Of a stretch of 64,000 nt of DNA, positions 16,688-21,287 are shown piece by piece. The notes under the pieces were generated by a model that saw nothing but the letters and a program-made list of their open reading frames with translations, had not been told where the DNA came from and ran no database searches. The DNA comes from Azospirillaceae bacterium (GTDB lineage Bacteria > Pseudomonadota > Alphaproteobacteria > Azospirillales > Azospirillaceae), in contig DASQNC010000069.1 of NCBI GenBank assembly GCA_035645145.1, forward strand, positions 1-64,000, in the 5' to 3' direction. The position numbers and the translations under genes are program-made. Numbering within the stretch: position 1 is the stretch's first letter; every line of letters begins with the position of its first letter.

Positions 16688-17635
16688 ATGCGCGACCCGA
16701 ATTTCTATTCGTCCGGTCCCCTGGACCGCGCCGCGGACCATCGCAAGGATGAATCCTGGCTGGCCGATCGCCTTACGCGTGTGGACACGCGGGTTCTTCC
16801 GCTGTGGCAGATGAAGAATTTCGTCACCGGCCCGCGCGAAGCGCCGCGACTCGCCTTCCTGTCCGCGGTCGAGGATTGGTGGCGCGACGACCGGGTGGAG
16901 CCCCGTTTCCTGGGCTTGGTCGAAGGGATCGCGCACTTCGCCGTGGACCTCAGCCATATCGAGGAGCCGGCGACCCATCCCCGGCTGGTGGATCGCGGCG
17001 CCTTCGTCGATCTGCGCACCGTCGGCCCGCTGATGCCCGCGTCCGAAGGCGCCATGCTGGCCTATGCCCGCGCGCTCGCCTGGTGGCATGCCCGGCACCG
17101 GTTCTGCGGCGTGTGCGGCGCACCGGCGGCCGCCGGCCAGGGTGGGCATGTCCGCAAGTGCACCAATACCGACTGCGGCACCCAGCATTTCCCGCGCACG
17201 GACCCGGCCGTCATCATGCTGGTCCACGACGGGGGCGACCGCTGCATCCTGGGCCGGCAGAGCACGTTCCCGCCCGGCATGCATTCCACGCTGGCGGGCT
17301 TCGTGGAACCGGGCGAAAGCCTGGAGGACGCCGTCGCGCGCGAGGTGTTCGAAGAGGTCGGCGTGCGCGTGACCGACGTGCGCTACCACTCGTCCCAGCC
17401 TTGGCCGTTCCCCGCCTCGATCATGCTCGGTTTCCATGCCCGCGCGGTCGATCGGGACATCCGCGTGGACCGGAACGAGCTGGAGAGTGCGGCCTGGTTC
17501 GACCGCGCCTATCTGCGCACCCGCCAGTCGTTCAGCATGACCGAACCGGCCCCGGACGGGGGATTGCGCCTGCCCCGCCGCGATTCCATCGCCTACCGGT
17601 TGCTGACGGATTGGATGAACGGGGGCGGGCTGTAG
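16688..17635 (+). CDS. nudC: NAD+ diphosphatase NudC
   Basis: A 315-aa Nudix hydrolase that cleaves NADH/NAD+ and removes NAD caps from RNA 5' ends. A Cys4 zinc finger (FCGVCG ... CTNTDCG, about residues 138-160) precedes the Nudix box GFVEPGESLEDAVAREVFEEVGV (in parts, about 202-224). The NudC-specific SQPWPFPAS motif (about 239-247) follows. The N-terminal domain is also full length. It stands alone: a lipoprotein gene is divergent upstream and 450 bp without a gene follow. Confidence 0.95.
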   Translation: MRDPNFYSSGPLDRAADHRKDESWLADRLTRVDTRVLPLWQMKNFVTGPREAPRLAFLSAVEDWWRDDRVEPRFLGLVEGIAHFAVDLSHIEEPATHPRLVDRGAFVDLRTVGPLMPASEGAMLAYARALAWWHARHRFCGVCGAPAAAGQGGHVRKCTNTDCGTQHFPRTDPAVIMLVHDGGDRCILGRQSTFPPGMHSTLAGFVEPGESLEDAVAREVFEEVGVRVTDVRYHSSQPWPFPASIMLGFHARAVDRDIRVDRNELESAAWFDRAYLRTRQSFSMTEPAPDGGLRLPRRDSIAYRLLTDWMNGGGL

Positions 17636-18089
17636 GTGTGGGGGCGGGTGCCGTTTCCACCGGCCATATCCGCGGAATTGACCGAGTCGCCCTTGCCGGT
17701 ACCCTGGCGACGGCATGGCTTCGAGCCGCGGGCGCGCCCGTCCGCAACGCCGACCACCGGCCAAAATCCCTTGGGATCCGGGATGGGGCGGCGGATCCCC
17801 CGCCATGGTCCCTGGTCCGGTCGGTCGTGGATCGACGGGTTTCGGTCGGGCATCCCGTCGGTTTCAGAACGGTCATGAACAGGTGGTCGGAACGTCTTGA
17901 TGAACCGACCGATCCAACCGCCGGGTGCCCCGTTGGAGTGGCCGCCGCCGATGCCGATAGCCCGTCCGTCCGCTTGCCGACCCCATCACGGGGGCATAGC
18001 TTGGGCGCCCGATGCAACCGCCAAGGAGTCACGCTGTTGAACGGACTCCATTGCGGTTGGACACATCCCGTTGAGGGTGGAGGCGGACA
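17636..18089. other. Gene-free stretch between nudC and the protease unit
   Basis: No frame here has convincing codon use or homology. The last 20 bases contain a GGTGGAGGCGG ribosome-binding region for the next gene, and the downstream half probably carries its promoter. I see no RNA gene or repeat. Confidence 0.4.
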
Positions 18090-18335
18090 ATGACCGAGCT
18101 CGACCGCGACATTGCGGCCTTCGATCAGATGACGCCGGTTCTGCAGACCCGGTACTGCGGGCGGTGGGTGATCATCCGCGACCGCGGGCTTGCGGGGACC
18201 TTCGACACGTTCGACGAGGCGGCGGAGGATGCCGTGCGGCGGTTCGGGCGCGGCCCGTACCTGATCCGCCAGGTCGGCGCGCCCCGTGCCGTCATGCCGG
18301 TATCGCTCGTTCACGTCCACGTGCATGGCGTTTAA
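18090..18335 (+). CDS. Small protein of DUF5678-like type
   Basis: An 81-aa protein built as strand-strand-helix-strand: RYCGRWVIIRDRGLAGTFDTF, an acidic helix DEAAEDAVRRF, then PYLIRQVGAP. This resembles the short DUF5678 family (GKWVAI ... helix ... strand), though I cannot confirm membership. A GGAGG just upstream decides ATG 18090. Its end overlaps the next ORF by 11 bp (18325-18335), so the two are translationally coupled. A role tied to the following retropepsin-like protein is inferred from this coupling only. Confidence 0.7.
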   Translation: MTELDRDIAAFDQMTPVLQTRYCGRWVIIRDRGLAGTFDTFDEAAEDAVRRFGRGPYLIRQVGAPRAVMPVSLVHVHVHGV

Positions 18336-18801
18336 CGATCTCATTCTCGGCGGCGGGGGCGACGAACCCGATCCGACGGCGCTCGCCGCGCATGGCGCGT
18401 CGATGTTCGTGGATATCGAATTCGGGCCGGCCGAGGCGCTGAAGCGGCTGGCCGCCGACGTGGTGGCCCTGATCGACACCGGTGCCAGCGTTAATTGCAT
18501 CGACGACGACCTGGCCCGCGCCCTGCGCCTGCCCGTCATCGACCTGGCCCCGATGGGCGGGGTCGGTGGCCTGCACCAGTCGAACGTCTACCTGGCATCG
18601 CTGCACGTCAAAAGCCTGAACGCCCGCTTTTACGAACCGCTGCACGGCGTCCATCTGGCGGCGGCGGGACTGGAGCACCGGATCCTTCTGGGGCGGCCGT
18701 TCCTGCGCCACTTCGTACTGGTCTACGACGGCATGCGCGGCGTGGTCAGCATCGCCGACCACGCGTCCCGCGCCGCGGTCCTGAGCACACGGCTGGCGTA
18801 A
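18325..18801 (+). CDS. Retropepsin-like aspartic protease
   Basis: A 158-aa single-domain clan AA aspartic protease. The catalytic motif is ALIDTGASVNCIDDDLA with D51-T-G-A, and the second conserved strand is ILLGRPFLRHFVLVYDG (about residues 120-136). The length fits retropepsin monomers that dimerise for activity. There is no signal peptide or membrane helix, so it should be cytoplasmic, unlike PerP-type anchored proteases. The ATG at 18325 overlaps the upstream small gene. The substrate is unknown. Confidence 0.8.
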   Translation: MAFNDLILGGGGDEPDPTALAAHGASMFVDIEFGPAEALKRLAADVVALIDTGASVNCIDDDLARALRLPVIDLAPMGGVGGLHQSNVYLASLHVKSLNARFYEPLHGVHLAAAGLEHRILLGRPFLRHFVLVYDGMRGVVSIADHASRAAVLSTRLA

Positions 18802-18826: not shown

Positions 18827-18862
18827 AAAAGAAAAGGGGGAGCGTGCAGGGCACGCTCCCCC
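18827..18862. terminator. Bidirectional intrinsic terminator
   Basis: A perfect 12-bp stem GGGGGAGCGTGC / GCACGCTCCCCC (18836-18862, loop of 3) is preceded on the plus strand by AAAAGAAAAG. Read on the minus strand this gives the hairpin plus TTTTCTTTT expected for a Rho-independent stop of the pheST transcript. It also lies just after the retropepsin gene. Confidence 0.85.
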
Positions 18863-18881
18863 TCATCCTTTGCCGTGCCGG

Positions 18882-21287
18882 TCAGGCGCGCAGGGTGCCG
18901 CCGGTTGCCTTGACCACCGCTGCCACGACCTTCTGGCCGACGGCCTCGATCTCGGCGTCGGTCAGGGTCTTTTCCACCGGTTGCAGGGTCACCGCCAGGG
19001 CGACCGACTTCTTGCCCGGCTCGATGCCCTGGCCCTGGTACACGTCGAACACCGACACGTCGCGGATCAGGGTCTTGTCGGCGCCGCGCACCGCCCGGAC
19101 CAGCCTGTCGGCCTCGACGCCCGCGTCCACCAGGAAGGCGAAATCGCGCTCGACCGGCTGGAACGGCGAGAGCCGCAGCAGCGGCTTGGCGGTGCCGGCC
19201 TTCTTCTTCGGGGCGGGCACCCGGTCCAGGAACACCTCGAACTGCACGACCGGGCCCTTGGCGCCCAGCCGGTCCAGCACCTCGGGATGGGTTTCGCCGA
19301 ACCAGGCCAGGACGGTGGGGCCCAGGCGCAGCGTGCCGCTGCGGCCGGGATGGTACCAGTCCGGCGCGTCGGTGGTGACCTGCAGGTTCGGCACCGGGGC
19401 GCCGGCGGCCTCCAACGCCGCAAGCGCGTCGGCCTTGGCGTCGTAGGCATCCACCGGACGGGCGCCGCCCGCCCAGTGGCGCGGCTGCGCCATGCCGGCG
19501 CGCACGCCCGCGGCCACCTGCTTCTGGCCGTCGGGCTCCGGGCCGTCGTACTGCGGACCCAGCTCGAACAGCGTGGCGTCGGCATGGCCGCGGTCGGCGT
19601 TGCGGCCGGCGGCCTGGATCAGGTTCGGCAGGATCGACGGCCGCATCACGTCCAGATCCGACGCGATCGGGTTCAGCAGCCTGAGGCCGGGATCGACCTG
19701 GGCGAAGCGGCCGGCCAGGTCCGACGACATGAACGACCAGGTCACCGCCTCGTGCAGGCCGCGGTCGGCCAGCGCCCGGCGGACCGCGGCGGCCCGGCGC
19801 TGCGTGGCGTTCAGGGCCGGCTTGGTGACGGCCGCGGTGCGGGGCAGGGGGACGGCGGGCAGGTGGTCGAACCCCGCCACGCGCATGACCTCTTCCACCA
19901 GATCGGCCTCGCCGTGGATGTCGGCGCGCCAGGACGGCGGGACCACCCGGAGCGGATCGCCCTCGGTCACCTCGCAGCCGAGGTCGCGCAGGATGCGGAC
20001 CTGTTCGGCGAGCGGCACGTCCATGCCGCCGAGCGTGGCCACCCGGTCGTGGCGCAGCGTGTAGGTGCGCCGCCACTCCGGGGCTTGGCCCGCCACGAAC
20101 ACCTCGGACGCTTCGCCGCCGCACAGCTCCAGGATCAGGCGGGTGGCGTACTCCATGCCCGCGGCCACGAAGGCGGGGTCGAGCCCGCGCTCGAAGCGGT
20201 AGCGGGCGTCGCTCTCGATGCCGAGCCGCCGGCCGGTCTGGGCCGTGCGCAGCGGATCGAACAGGGCGGCCTCGATGTAGACGCTGGTGGTCGCCTCGGT
20301 GCAGCCGGTGGCCTCGCCGCCGACGATGCCGCCCAGGCTCTCCACGCCGCCCTCGTCGACGATGACCGTGACCGACGGGTCGAGCGTGTACGTCTTGCCG
20401 TTGAGCGCGGCCAGGGTCTCGCCGTCGCGCGCCAGTCGCACCGTCAGATGGCCGTTCAGCTTGGCCGCGTCGAAGACGTGGAGCGGGCGCGCCACGTCCA
20501 TGGTCAGGAAGTTGGTGATGTCCACCAGGGCCGAGATCGGGCGCAGGCCGATGGCCGCCAGCTTGTCCTGCAGCCAGCGCGGGCTGGGGCCGTTGCGCAC
20601 GCCGCGGATCAGGCGGCCGAGGAACAGCGGGCAGGCGTCGGCGGCCTCGGCCGGCAGGTCGATGTGGACGCGGACCGGGTTGGGGAAGCGGCCGGGCACC
20701 GGTTCGGCCTTGGCCAGCGGCTTCAGGGTGCCCAGGCCGGCGGCGGCGAGGTCGCGGGCGATGCCGCGCACGCCGGCGCAGTCGGCCCGGTCGGGCGTCA
20801 GCGACACGTCGATGACCGGGTCGGCCAGCCCCATCAGATCCACGAACCGCGTGCCGACGGGCGCATCCTCGGGCAGCTCGACGATGCCCTCATGGTCCTC
20901 CGACAGGCCCAGCTCCCAGGCCGAGCACAGCATGCCGTCGGAGACGACGCCGCGGACCTCGCGCTTTTCCAGCGTCAGGTTCTTGGCCGGGATGTGGGTG
21001 CCGGACGGGGCGTAGGCGCTCTTCAGACCGGTGCGGGCGTTCGGCGCGCCGCAGACGACCGTGATCGGGTCGCCCCCGCCGACGTCCACCAGGCAGACCT
21101 GGAGCTTGTCGGCGTTGGGGTGCCGCTCGGCCTTCAGCACATGGCCGACCACCAGCGGTTCCAGGCCCTTGGCGCGGTCGGACACGCCTTCGACCTCGAG
21201 CCCCAGCATGGTCAGCGTCTCGACGATCCGCTCCAGCGGGGCGTCGGTCTCCAGGTGCTCCTTGAGCCAGGAGAGGGTGAACTTCAT
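18882..21287 (-). CDS. pheT: Phenylalanyl-tRNA synthetase beta subunit
   Basis: An 801-aa subunit of the alpha2-beta2 enzyme. The start MKFTLSWLKEHLETDAPLE is typical. A tRNA-binding EMAP-like domain (VVGHVLKAERHPNADKLQVC region, about residues 45-150) is followed by the editing B3/B4 domain, the B5 domain, the synthetase-like core, and a C-terminal FDX-ACB anticodon-binding domain (SPFQPVERDFAFLVDAG onward). Full length. It begins 16 bp after pheS and is followed by a strong terminator. Confidence 0.97.
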   Translation of the reverse strand: MKFTLSWLKEHLETDAPLERIVETLTMLGLEVEGVSDRAKGLEPLVVGHVLKAERHPNADKLQVCLVDVGGGDPITVVCGAPNARTGLKSAYAPSGTHIPAKNLTLEKREVRGVVSDGMLCSAWELGLSEDHEGIVELPEDAPVGTRFVDLMGLADPVIDVSLTPDRADCAGVRGIARDLAAAGLGTLKPLAKAEPVPGRFPNPVRVHIDLPAEAADACPLFLGRLIRGVRNGPSPRWLQDKLAAIGLRPISALVDITNFLTMDVARPLHVFDAAKLNGHLTVRLARDGETLAALNGKTYTLDPSVTVIVDEGGVESLGGIVGGEATGCTEATTSVYIEAALFDPLRTAQTGRRLGIESDARYRFERGLDPAFVAAGMEYATRLILELCGGEASEVFVAGQAPEWRRTYTLRHDRVATLGGMDVPLAEQVRILRDLGCEVTEGDPLRVVPPSWRADIHGEADLVEEVMRVAGFDHLPAVPLPRTAAVTKPALNATQRRAAAVRRALADRGLHEAVTWSFMSSDLAGRFAQVDPGLRLLNPIASDLDVMRPSILPNLIQAAGRNADRGHADATLFELGPQYDGPEPDGQKQVAAGVRAGMAQPRHWAGGARPVDAYDAKADALAALEAAGAPVPNLQVTTDAPDWYHPGRSGTLRLGPTVLAWFGETHPEVLDRLGAKGPVVQFEVFLDRVPAPKKKAGTAKPLLRLSPFQPVERDFAFLVDAGVEADRLVRAVRGADKTLIRDVSVFDVYQGQGIEPGKKSVALAVTLQPVEKTLTDAEIEAVGQKVVAAVVKATGGTLRA

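Follow-up and report, generated by a model that had tools for sequence, protein, structure and literature searches.

Few bacterial retropepsins have a known role. What should be made, then, of a locus at which the gene for a retropepsin-like protease opens inside the end of a much smaller gene? Is the small protein made to control the protease, to neutralize it, to bring it substrates, or to be cut by it? We take up these questions for a stretch of 64,000 nucleotides (here called the window) from an Azospirillaceae bacterium with a genome of 3.9 Mb.

The gene pair and its products

The pair sits on the plus strand of the window between a NUDIX gene and pheT, and the features of the locus are as follows.

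16688-17635: NADH pyrophosphatase-type NUDIX gene, before the pair (Pfam)
18079..18083, plus strand: Shine-Dalgarno site GGAGG of the small gene, read directly, 6 nt 5' of the ATG
18090..18335, plus strand: small gene, encoding the 81-aa DUF5678-type protein (ORF with ATG start)
18273..18332, plus strand: residues 62-81 of the small protein, forming its C-terminal tail, with low pLDDT towards the end
18325..18335, plus strand: 11-bp overlap of the small and protease ORFs, containing the protease start codon
18325..18801, plus strand: protease gene, encoding the 158-aa retropepsin-like aspartic protease (ORF with ATG start)
18475..18486, plus strand: catalytic motif Asp51-Thr-Gly-Ala, read directly, with the D51 codon at 18475-18477
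18685..18696, plus strand: second retropepsin motif Leu-Leu-Gly-Arg, residues 121-124, from a 9-row alignment
18827..18871, no strand assigned: inverted repeat in the protease-pheT intergenic interval, resembling a terminator when read on the minus strand
18882-21287, minus strand: pheT, convergent, after the pair (Pfam)

The first-pass annotation had described an 81-aa gene that overlaps, by 11 bp, a gene for a 158-aa protease with a DTGA motif, and both frames are confirmed. A longer protease frame of 171 aa would begin at a GTG (18286); we take the ATG at 18325 as the start because that codon aligns with the starts of its relatives. The best anti-Shine-Dalgarno duplex at the small-gene start reaches -9.3 kcal/mol, compared with a mean of -3.2 and a 5th percentile of -6.6 kcal/mol for 300 random ATGs of the window, and the protease start, with a duplex energy of 0, has no Shine-Dalgarno site. 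Based on this combination, translation of the protease is probably coupled to that of the small gene. Six relatives have assigned starts: five overlap by 26, 26, 20, 14, and 8 bp, one has a 10-bp gap, and their protease starts score 0 in three cases, -2.8 in one, and -5.9 and -6.4 in two. A missing Shine-Dalgarno site at the protease start is common among relatives, not universal.

No gene is assigned to the 454 bp ahead of the pair (17636-18089), and no sigma-70-type promoter match was found in that interval. The inverted repeat beyond the pair is weak on its own, given that one terminator-like site was found and 0.6 would be expected in shuffles. Third-position G+C is 0.87 and 0.86 in the pair, 0.86 in the NUDIX gene, and 0.96 in pheT, and the overall G+C of the pair (0.68) is close to that of the window (0.69). 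With a composition that equals that of the NUDIX gene and nearly that of the window, the pair bears no sign of recent import.

What kind of protein does the small gene encode? It had been called "DUF5678-like," and the kinship stands, although family membership by the curated cutoff does not: DUF5678 (PF18929) is its sole Pfam match, at E 0.002 and 18.4 bits against a cutoff of 23.2, so that by sequence the protein is a remote DUF5678 relative. The link to the family itself is made by a sequence bridge and a structural match. The bridge is a Chloroflexota protein (L203) that is 43% identical to the small protein over 74 residues (E 2e-22 in a single comparison) and whose 43-aa core stretch, at 26.6 bits, exceeds the DUF5678 cutoff, which connects the small protein by homology to members that pass it. 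The structural match comes from viral models, among which the best hit of the small-protein model is an unnamed 80-aa protein (E 1.7e-4) and the best named hits, at E 1.7e-3 and 2.2e-3 (probability 1.00), are DUF5678 proteins from two pandoraviruses. Among solved structures, nothing matched with an E below 1 and the best Z score was 3.6; this poor match of a model does not show a new fold.

The small-protein model (pLDDT 84.2) has a predicted helix-strand-strand-helix-strand core at residues 3-61 and a tail, residues 62-81, that is mostly disordered in the model, is often hydrophobic, and varies in sequence between subtypes. Of the readable paired copies, 23 of 29 have a loose tail motif (Leu/Met then Pro/Gly within the first 12 tail residues), as do 5 of 10 unpaired copies; the tail of L156_791 stands outside this count, being unreadable in a frame cut at 200 residues. 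On these figures the motif is no clear marker of paired copies, and its conservation is not enough to link the tail with the protease.

The protease is easier to place. It passes the Pfam family Asp_protease_2 (26.4 bits; cutoff, 24.3) and falls just under the cutoff of gag-asp_proteas (26.9 versus 28.2 bits). Its catalytic stretch LIDTGA lies at residues 49-54; in the 9-row alignment, DTGA is invariant, as is the Gly-Arg of the second motif. Over a wider set of 32 paired ORFs, D[TS]G is present in 30, the exceptions being L157 (DTRA) and the C-terminal piece of a broken gene in L153, and the hydrophobic-hydrophobic-Gly-Arg pattern is present in 23. The single-chain model (pLDDT 72.6) matches Ddi1 (Z 11.0), the EIAV protease (Z 10.9), and the Rickettsia protease APRc (Z 10.8), with Z scores of 9.4 to 11.0 among the matches listed, and a Foldseek search with the same model returned retroviral proteases (foamy virus and FIV), Ddi1, and APRc, the best at E 1.5e-4. 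The predicted structure is a single-domain retropepsin fold.

The first-pass annotation had also held that the protease lacks any signal, and a hydropathy measure agrees: the highest Kyte-Doolittle mean over any 19 residues is 1.21, as fits a soluble protein. The enzyme is thus probably soluble and cytoplasmic, without apparent signal or membrane segment. By the same crude measure, a hydrophobic 19-mer (mean of at least 1.6) precedes the active site in 0 of 32 paired ORFs versus 37 of 63 ORFs that stand unpaired in the TIGR03698 set described below.

Recurrence of the pair and its exceptions

Does the small gene accompany such proteases elsewhere, or is the window an accident? A first look used TIGR03698 (clan_AA_DTGF), which, like the window protease, comprises short bacterial DTG proteases, and returned 67 matches in 398 genomes of the phylum. 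The window protease is no member (15.2 bits; cutoff, 57.35). Upstream ORFs of these 67 loci included two window-type pairs (L073 and L045), and a small-gene profile run over all 67 matched in these two only. A third, remoter pair brings the count to 3 of 67: in L033 (also L005), a TIGR03698-type relative (33.9 bits, below the cutoff) follows without a gap a 64-aa DUF5678-like gene (22.1 bits, also below the cutoff).

The alignment of the window, L073, and L045 proteases then served as the query for a species-level scan with one genome per species (84,980). The small gene lies directly upstream in all six protease relatives found, of which two were already query rows (L073 and L045, re-found as L080 and L083) and four were new, from two Phenylobacterium metagenome-assembled genomes (MAGs), one alphaproteobacterial MAG, and one Chloroflexi MAG. 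One Phenylobacterium locus (L081) has a frameshift in the 5' part of its protease gene. A scan of genome contigs with the single protein gave no close relatives.

Among 385 alphaproteobacterial genomes, there were 28 protease matches in 21 genomes and 30 small-protein matches in 22 genomes. Sixteen of the 28 proteases adjoin a same-strand small match, and an iterated profile raises this to 18 with two more from a tandem array in G550. The first-pass annotation had held that its reading would fail if protease homologues usually lacked the small gene, and both the scan (6 of 6) and the class sample (18 of 28) came out on the side of pairing. Who are the 10 unpaired ones? Three are of an MGLIHAD type (L091, L107, and L100) and five are longer or two-domain frames (L092, L098, L099, L108, and L104); judged by sequence, these eight are retropepsins of other kinds. 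The last two are an N-terminally truncated relative (L102) and a relative at L103:1258-1887 (G513) that has LGRDFL and in which NTA replaces DTG, possibly a non-catalytic homologue. These two, the only close relatives without the small gene in the class sample, do not look like working proteases. One bias should be kept in mind: paired members supplied the rows of the profile queries, which favors the finding of further pairs.

The view from the small gene is more varied. Sixteen of its 30 matches are paired directly, and one more is paired by iterated profile (L166); one (L147) has the remains of a protease gene next to it; two form the front part of a fusion with a ParA/MipZ-like ATPase, at L162:5218-6306 on the minus strand (by Pfam) and in L163 (by reading); and two represent one locus at a contig end (L164). 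The other eight lack an intact protease beside them, and among these G718:C49 (L160) has a short remnant by eye and a 349-aa frame in G715 is doubtful, as the iterated profile did not recover it. Two loci that share a genus code may be read side by side: L157 (G631) has a paired protease with DTRA for DTGA, and L160 (G718) keeps the small gene beside a remnant that, by eye, has no active-site stretch. Their sequences suggest protease decay with retention of the small gene.

Closer to home, a search of 81 further genomes of the family, a congeneric one included, found neither gene, which implies that the module is dispensable. The stretch fetched from the congeneric genome contains pheT; nothing in it matches NUDIX better than E 0.06, and at the DNA level nothing resembles the pair more than chance would allow.

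Chloroflexota were approached from the side of the domain. PF18929 matches 55 places in 45 of 340 Chloroflexota genomes; we inspected 50 of these, leaving out five, all long frames (G1071, G901, G981, G1158, and G867). A retropepsin-like ORF lies directly downstream in 21 of the 50, 15 recognized by motif and six more by reading plus profile; the protease profile matches 19 of the 21, and L182 and L214 are recognized by motif only. Frames or motifs are disturbed in L195, L217, and L227, and two further matches adjoin protease remnants (L181 and L224). How often would such an ORF be met by chance? In the same downstream slot, a DTG-type ORF follows 4 of 300 window frames (the real protease may be among the four) and 0 of 177 flank frames; both controls are alphaproteobacterial sequence, and the like-for-like Chloroflexota figure is 15 of 50, by motif. 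With homologous pairs in other genera and in another phylum, we do not attribute the pairing to chance.

Thirteen of the 50 matches lie at the N terminus of similar-looking long frames and 14 in other contexts. One of the 13, L201:1474-3126, is shown by Pfam to carry a DUF5678-type domain at the N terminus of a CCA-adding enzyme, and it is the only one so shown. L204 has a free small DUF5678 gene directly ahead of a gene that, by eye, resembles one for a CCA-adding-type enzyme. No one-frame fusion of the small domain to a protease was seen among the profile matches of the Chloroflexota loci. Since the domain also occurs without a protease or fused elsewhere, it is not always the partner of a retropepsin.

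Viruses, arrays, and ancestry

The small-protein alignment, searched against viral contigs, found nine loci, five of which clearly carry a protease beside the small gene (L173, L175, L176, L178, and L180, with identical proteases in L178 and L180); in L177, the protease is broken. A phage exonuclease and a RecT-like protein neighbor the pair in L173, an integrase in L176, and an exonuclease in L180, and these neighbors mark at least L173, L176, and L180 as phage genomes, L176 being temperate by its integrase. The viral contig L172 has a GIY-YIG-like ORF (by eye; L172:4795-6248) after the small gene, in the protease slot, which may reflect invasion by a homing endonuclease or intron. The protease alignment had no matches in viral contigs; given the five clear pairs found with the small protein, we regard this as a limit of the pattern search. 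Phage records searched with the L173 proteins gave none. A tblastn search of plasmid records matched the window protease weakly in five (best E, 0.04), of which two bear the annotation retropepsin-like aspartic protease, and gave nothing for the window small protein or its relatives.

Two loci carry the pair in tandem. L219 has two pairs, and L156:70-5340 (G550:C98) has five, whose small proteins are 45-91% identical and whose proteases are 32-65% identical. In all five pairs of the G550 array, the protease frame opens directly after the small-gene stop, in the same reading frame.

Do these pairs share an ancestry, or were they assembled repeatedly? In a tree of 97 retropepsins (141 columns), the 29 paired rows fall together with the remnant L102, and the paired label requires 2 changes, compared with 25.3 in shuffles; a 103-row tree with six more unpaired class matches (L091, L092, L099, L100, L107, and L108) gives 3 versus 25.5. 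Both trees place the window in a starred set of 15 paired rows, which in the 97-row tree includes Chloroflexota, Magnetococcales, Caulobacteraceae, and viral-contig members. The 97-row tree was built by a quick method from few columns and has 40 open forks and several long branches. It leaves out L073 and L045 (the same loci as L169 and L170), L180 (protease identical to that of L178), and L147, L153, and L157 (without D[TS]G or too short); a motif filter removed L092, L099, L100, L103, and L108, and L012 and L171 stand in for L091 and L107. L103, which lacks the motif by which the rows were trimmed, was not placed in the larger tree either.

Distances between small proteins and distances between proteases are correlated (r = 0.72 over 25 pairs), and none of 2,000 permutations reached this value, a correlation that could also come from mere co-inheritance. 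In an all-against-all comparison of the ORFs around 26 pair loci, the protease cluster spans 25 loci and the small-protein cluster 24. The next cluster, in five loci, is an antisense frame over the two genes, and the one after it, in four loci, is confined to viral contigs; no third recurring gene accompanies the 26 loci.

A candidate control subunit and its rivals

That the pair recurs in distantly related bacteria and in some of their viruses suggests a built-in partnership of the small protein with the enzyme. We posit that the two genes form an operon-encoded, cytosolic retropepsin module with a dedicated DUF5678-type control subunit, a reading that we prefer tentatively and rate as nearly, not quite, probable. 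In this model, the small protein would be made first, with translation of the protease probably coupled to it, and would most likely bind the protease and control it, its folded core being the docking domain. According to the available text of one source, retropepsins work as dimers and have an extended cleft (PMC11957791), and we presume that the window protease dimerizes and cuts likewise. The part of this model of which we are least certain is the tail: we speculate that the disordered, often hydrophobic segment may occupy the extended active-site cleft as a substrate-like latch, which would keep the enzyme silent or narrow its cutting until a signal or substrate displaces it. There is a precedent for partner proteins, as the characterized bacterial A2 peptidases are said, in the same available text, to involve other, activating protein factors (PMC11957791). 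The first-pass annotation had taken the tight coupling to be functional; sequence comparison bears this out in part, in that close relatives are paired apart from the truncated L102 and the DTG-less L103.

Could the small protein instead be an antitoxin? In this main rival, which we consider unlikely, the small protein, made first, would neutralize a protease otherwise able to cut essential host proteins, and release of the protease on infection would stop growth, as in toxin-antitoxin or abortive infection systems. The small gene lies upstream and overlaps, which is the antitoxin-first layout; small genes exist without an intact protease, as beside the remnants in L147 and L160, and the protease relatives without a small gene are truncated (L102) or DTG-less (L103). 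This pattern is what would be expected of a restrained toxin, and an adaptor used elsewhere could also give it. The patchy distribution, the tandem arrays (G550 and L219), and the carriage on phage contigs point the same way, as do weak PADLOC matches of the proteases to candidate-defense families: the best relative matches PDC-M08B at E 1.5e-6 and the window protease matches PDC-M52B at E 0.011, several paired proteases matching these families weakly around the DTG motif. The two families seem to include retropepsin-like proteins, so part of the group may already be listed as candidate defense genes; we found no literature on either by name. Against this rival, no small protein matched a partner component of these families, and the small proteins scanned, that of the window included, matched no PADLOC family except for L183 to PD_DExK (E 0.011). 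For 66 neighbors of 18 pair loci, 11 PADLOC models match at E 1e-10 or better, none in more than two proteins (among them PDC-M72A in two; SspH, mad8, PDC-M33C, Csa3, Ankyrin, and RTasPolA in one each), and their Pfam families are mostly housekeeping (25 of 103 families shown). Company typical of a defense island is not supported by these figures, which come without a background rate.

Two further roles deserve consideration. As an adaptor, the small protein would deliver substrates to an always-active protease, and fusion of the same domain to a CCA-adding enzyme (L201) and a ParA/MipZ-like ATPase (L162) is what one would expect of a general binding domain; the present evidence identifies no target, and we rank this role behind the antitoxin, as unlikely too. 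As a substrate, the small protein would be cut by the protease, perhaps in its tail, to yield an active product. Clan AA proteases bind extended segments, and the tail is disordered and often hydrophobic, yet the tail varies in sequence from one subtype to another and shows no clear link with pairing, and we find this role quite improbable. Finally, control and conflict may be combined: DUF5678-type proteins would be general control subunits of cytoplasmic retropepsins in bacteria and some phages, and the pair would be a proteolytic conflict system, serving abortive infection or superinfection control, with the active site blocked by the DUF5678-type protein until a phage or stress signal displaces it. 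We regard this combination as doubtful.

How does the module with a control subunit compare with what is known? APRc of Rickettsia shares with the window protease a DTG active site and, by model, the fold (Z 10.8, root mean square deviation of 3.5 over 120 residues); it is predicted to be embedded in the membrane by three helices, whereas the window protease looks soluble, and the available part of its description mentions no small partner (PMC4140852). The first-pass annotation had described bacterial retropepsins with known targets as mostly membrane-anchored, which is right in part: APRc and SpoIIGA are both described as membrane-embedded in the accessible part of that paper (PMC4140852), and RloA proteases carry signal peptides, a feature that distinguishes them from RimB, in the portion of a second source at hand (PMC12239564). 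RimB (Pseudomonas fluorescens) and RloA (Pseudomonas aeruginosa) are retropepsin-like, as is the window protease, and RimB works with operon partner proteins, as far as the excerpts of two papers go (PMC11957791 and PMC12239564). The partners in question, RimK and RimA, are no DUF5678-type proteins, and the four Pfam matches of the window protease include no family that could be tied to RimB. In the openly licensed PubMed Central literature, we found no account of the pairing as a module, and DUF5678 appeared, in the text available there, in a single paper, as a name in a protein list. Each of the two kinds of protein is known already.

What does the recurring pairing mean, in the end, for the two families? 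For DUF5678 it supplies a concrete hypothesis that can be put to the test, and for a clade of soluble retropepsins a candidate regulator. Should the small protein inhibit its partner, nature would have provided a genetically encoded inhibitor of an HIV-protease-like enzyme. Should the two form a conflict system, a further class of protease would enter the contest between phages and bacteria, and the tandem arrays would be banks of diversified protease-inhibitor pairs.
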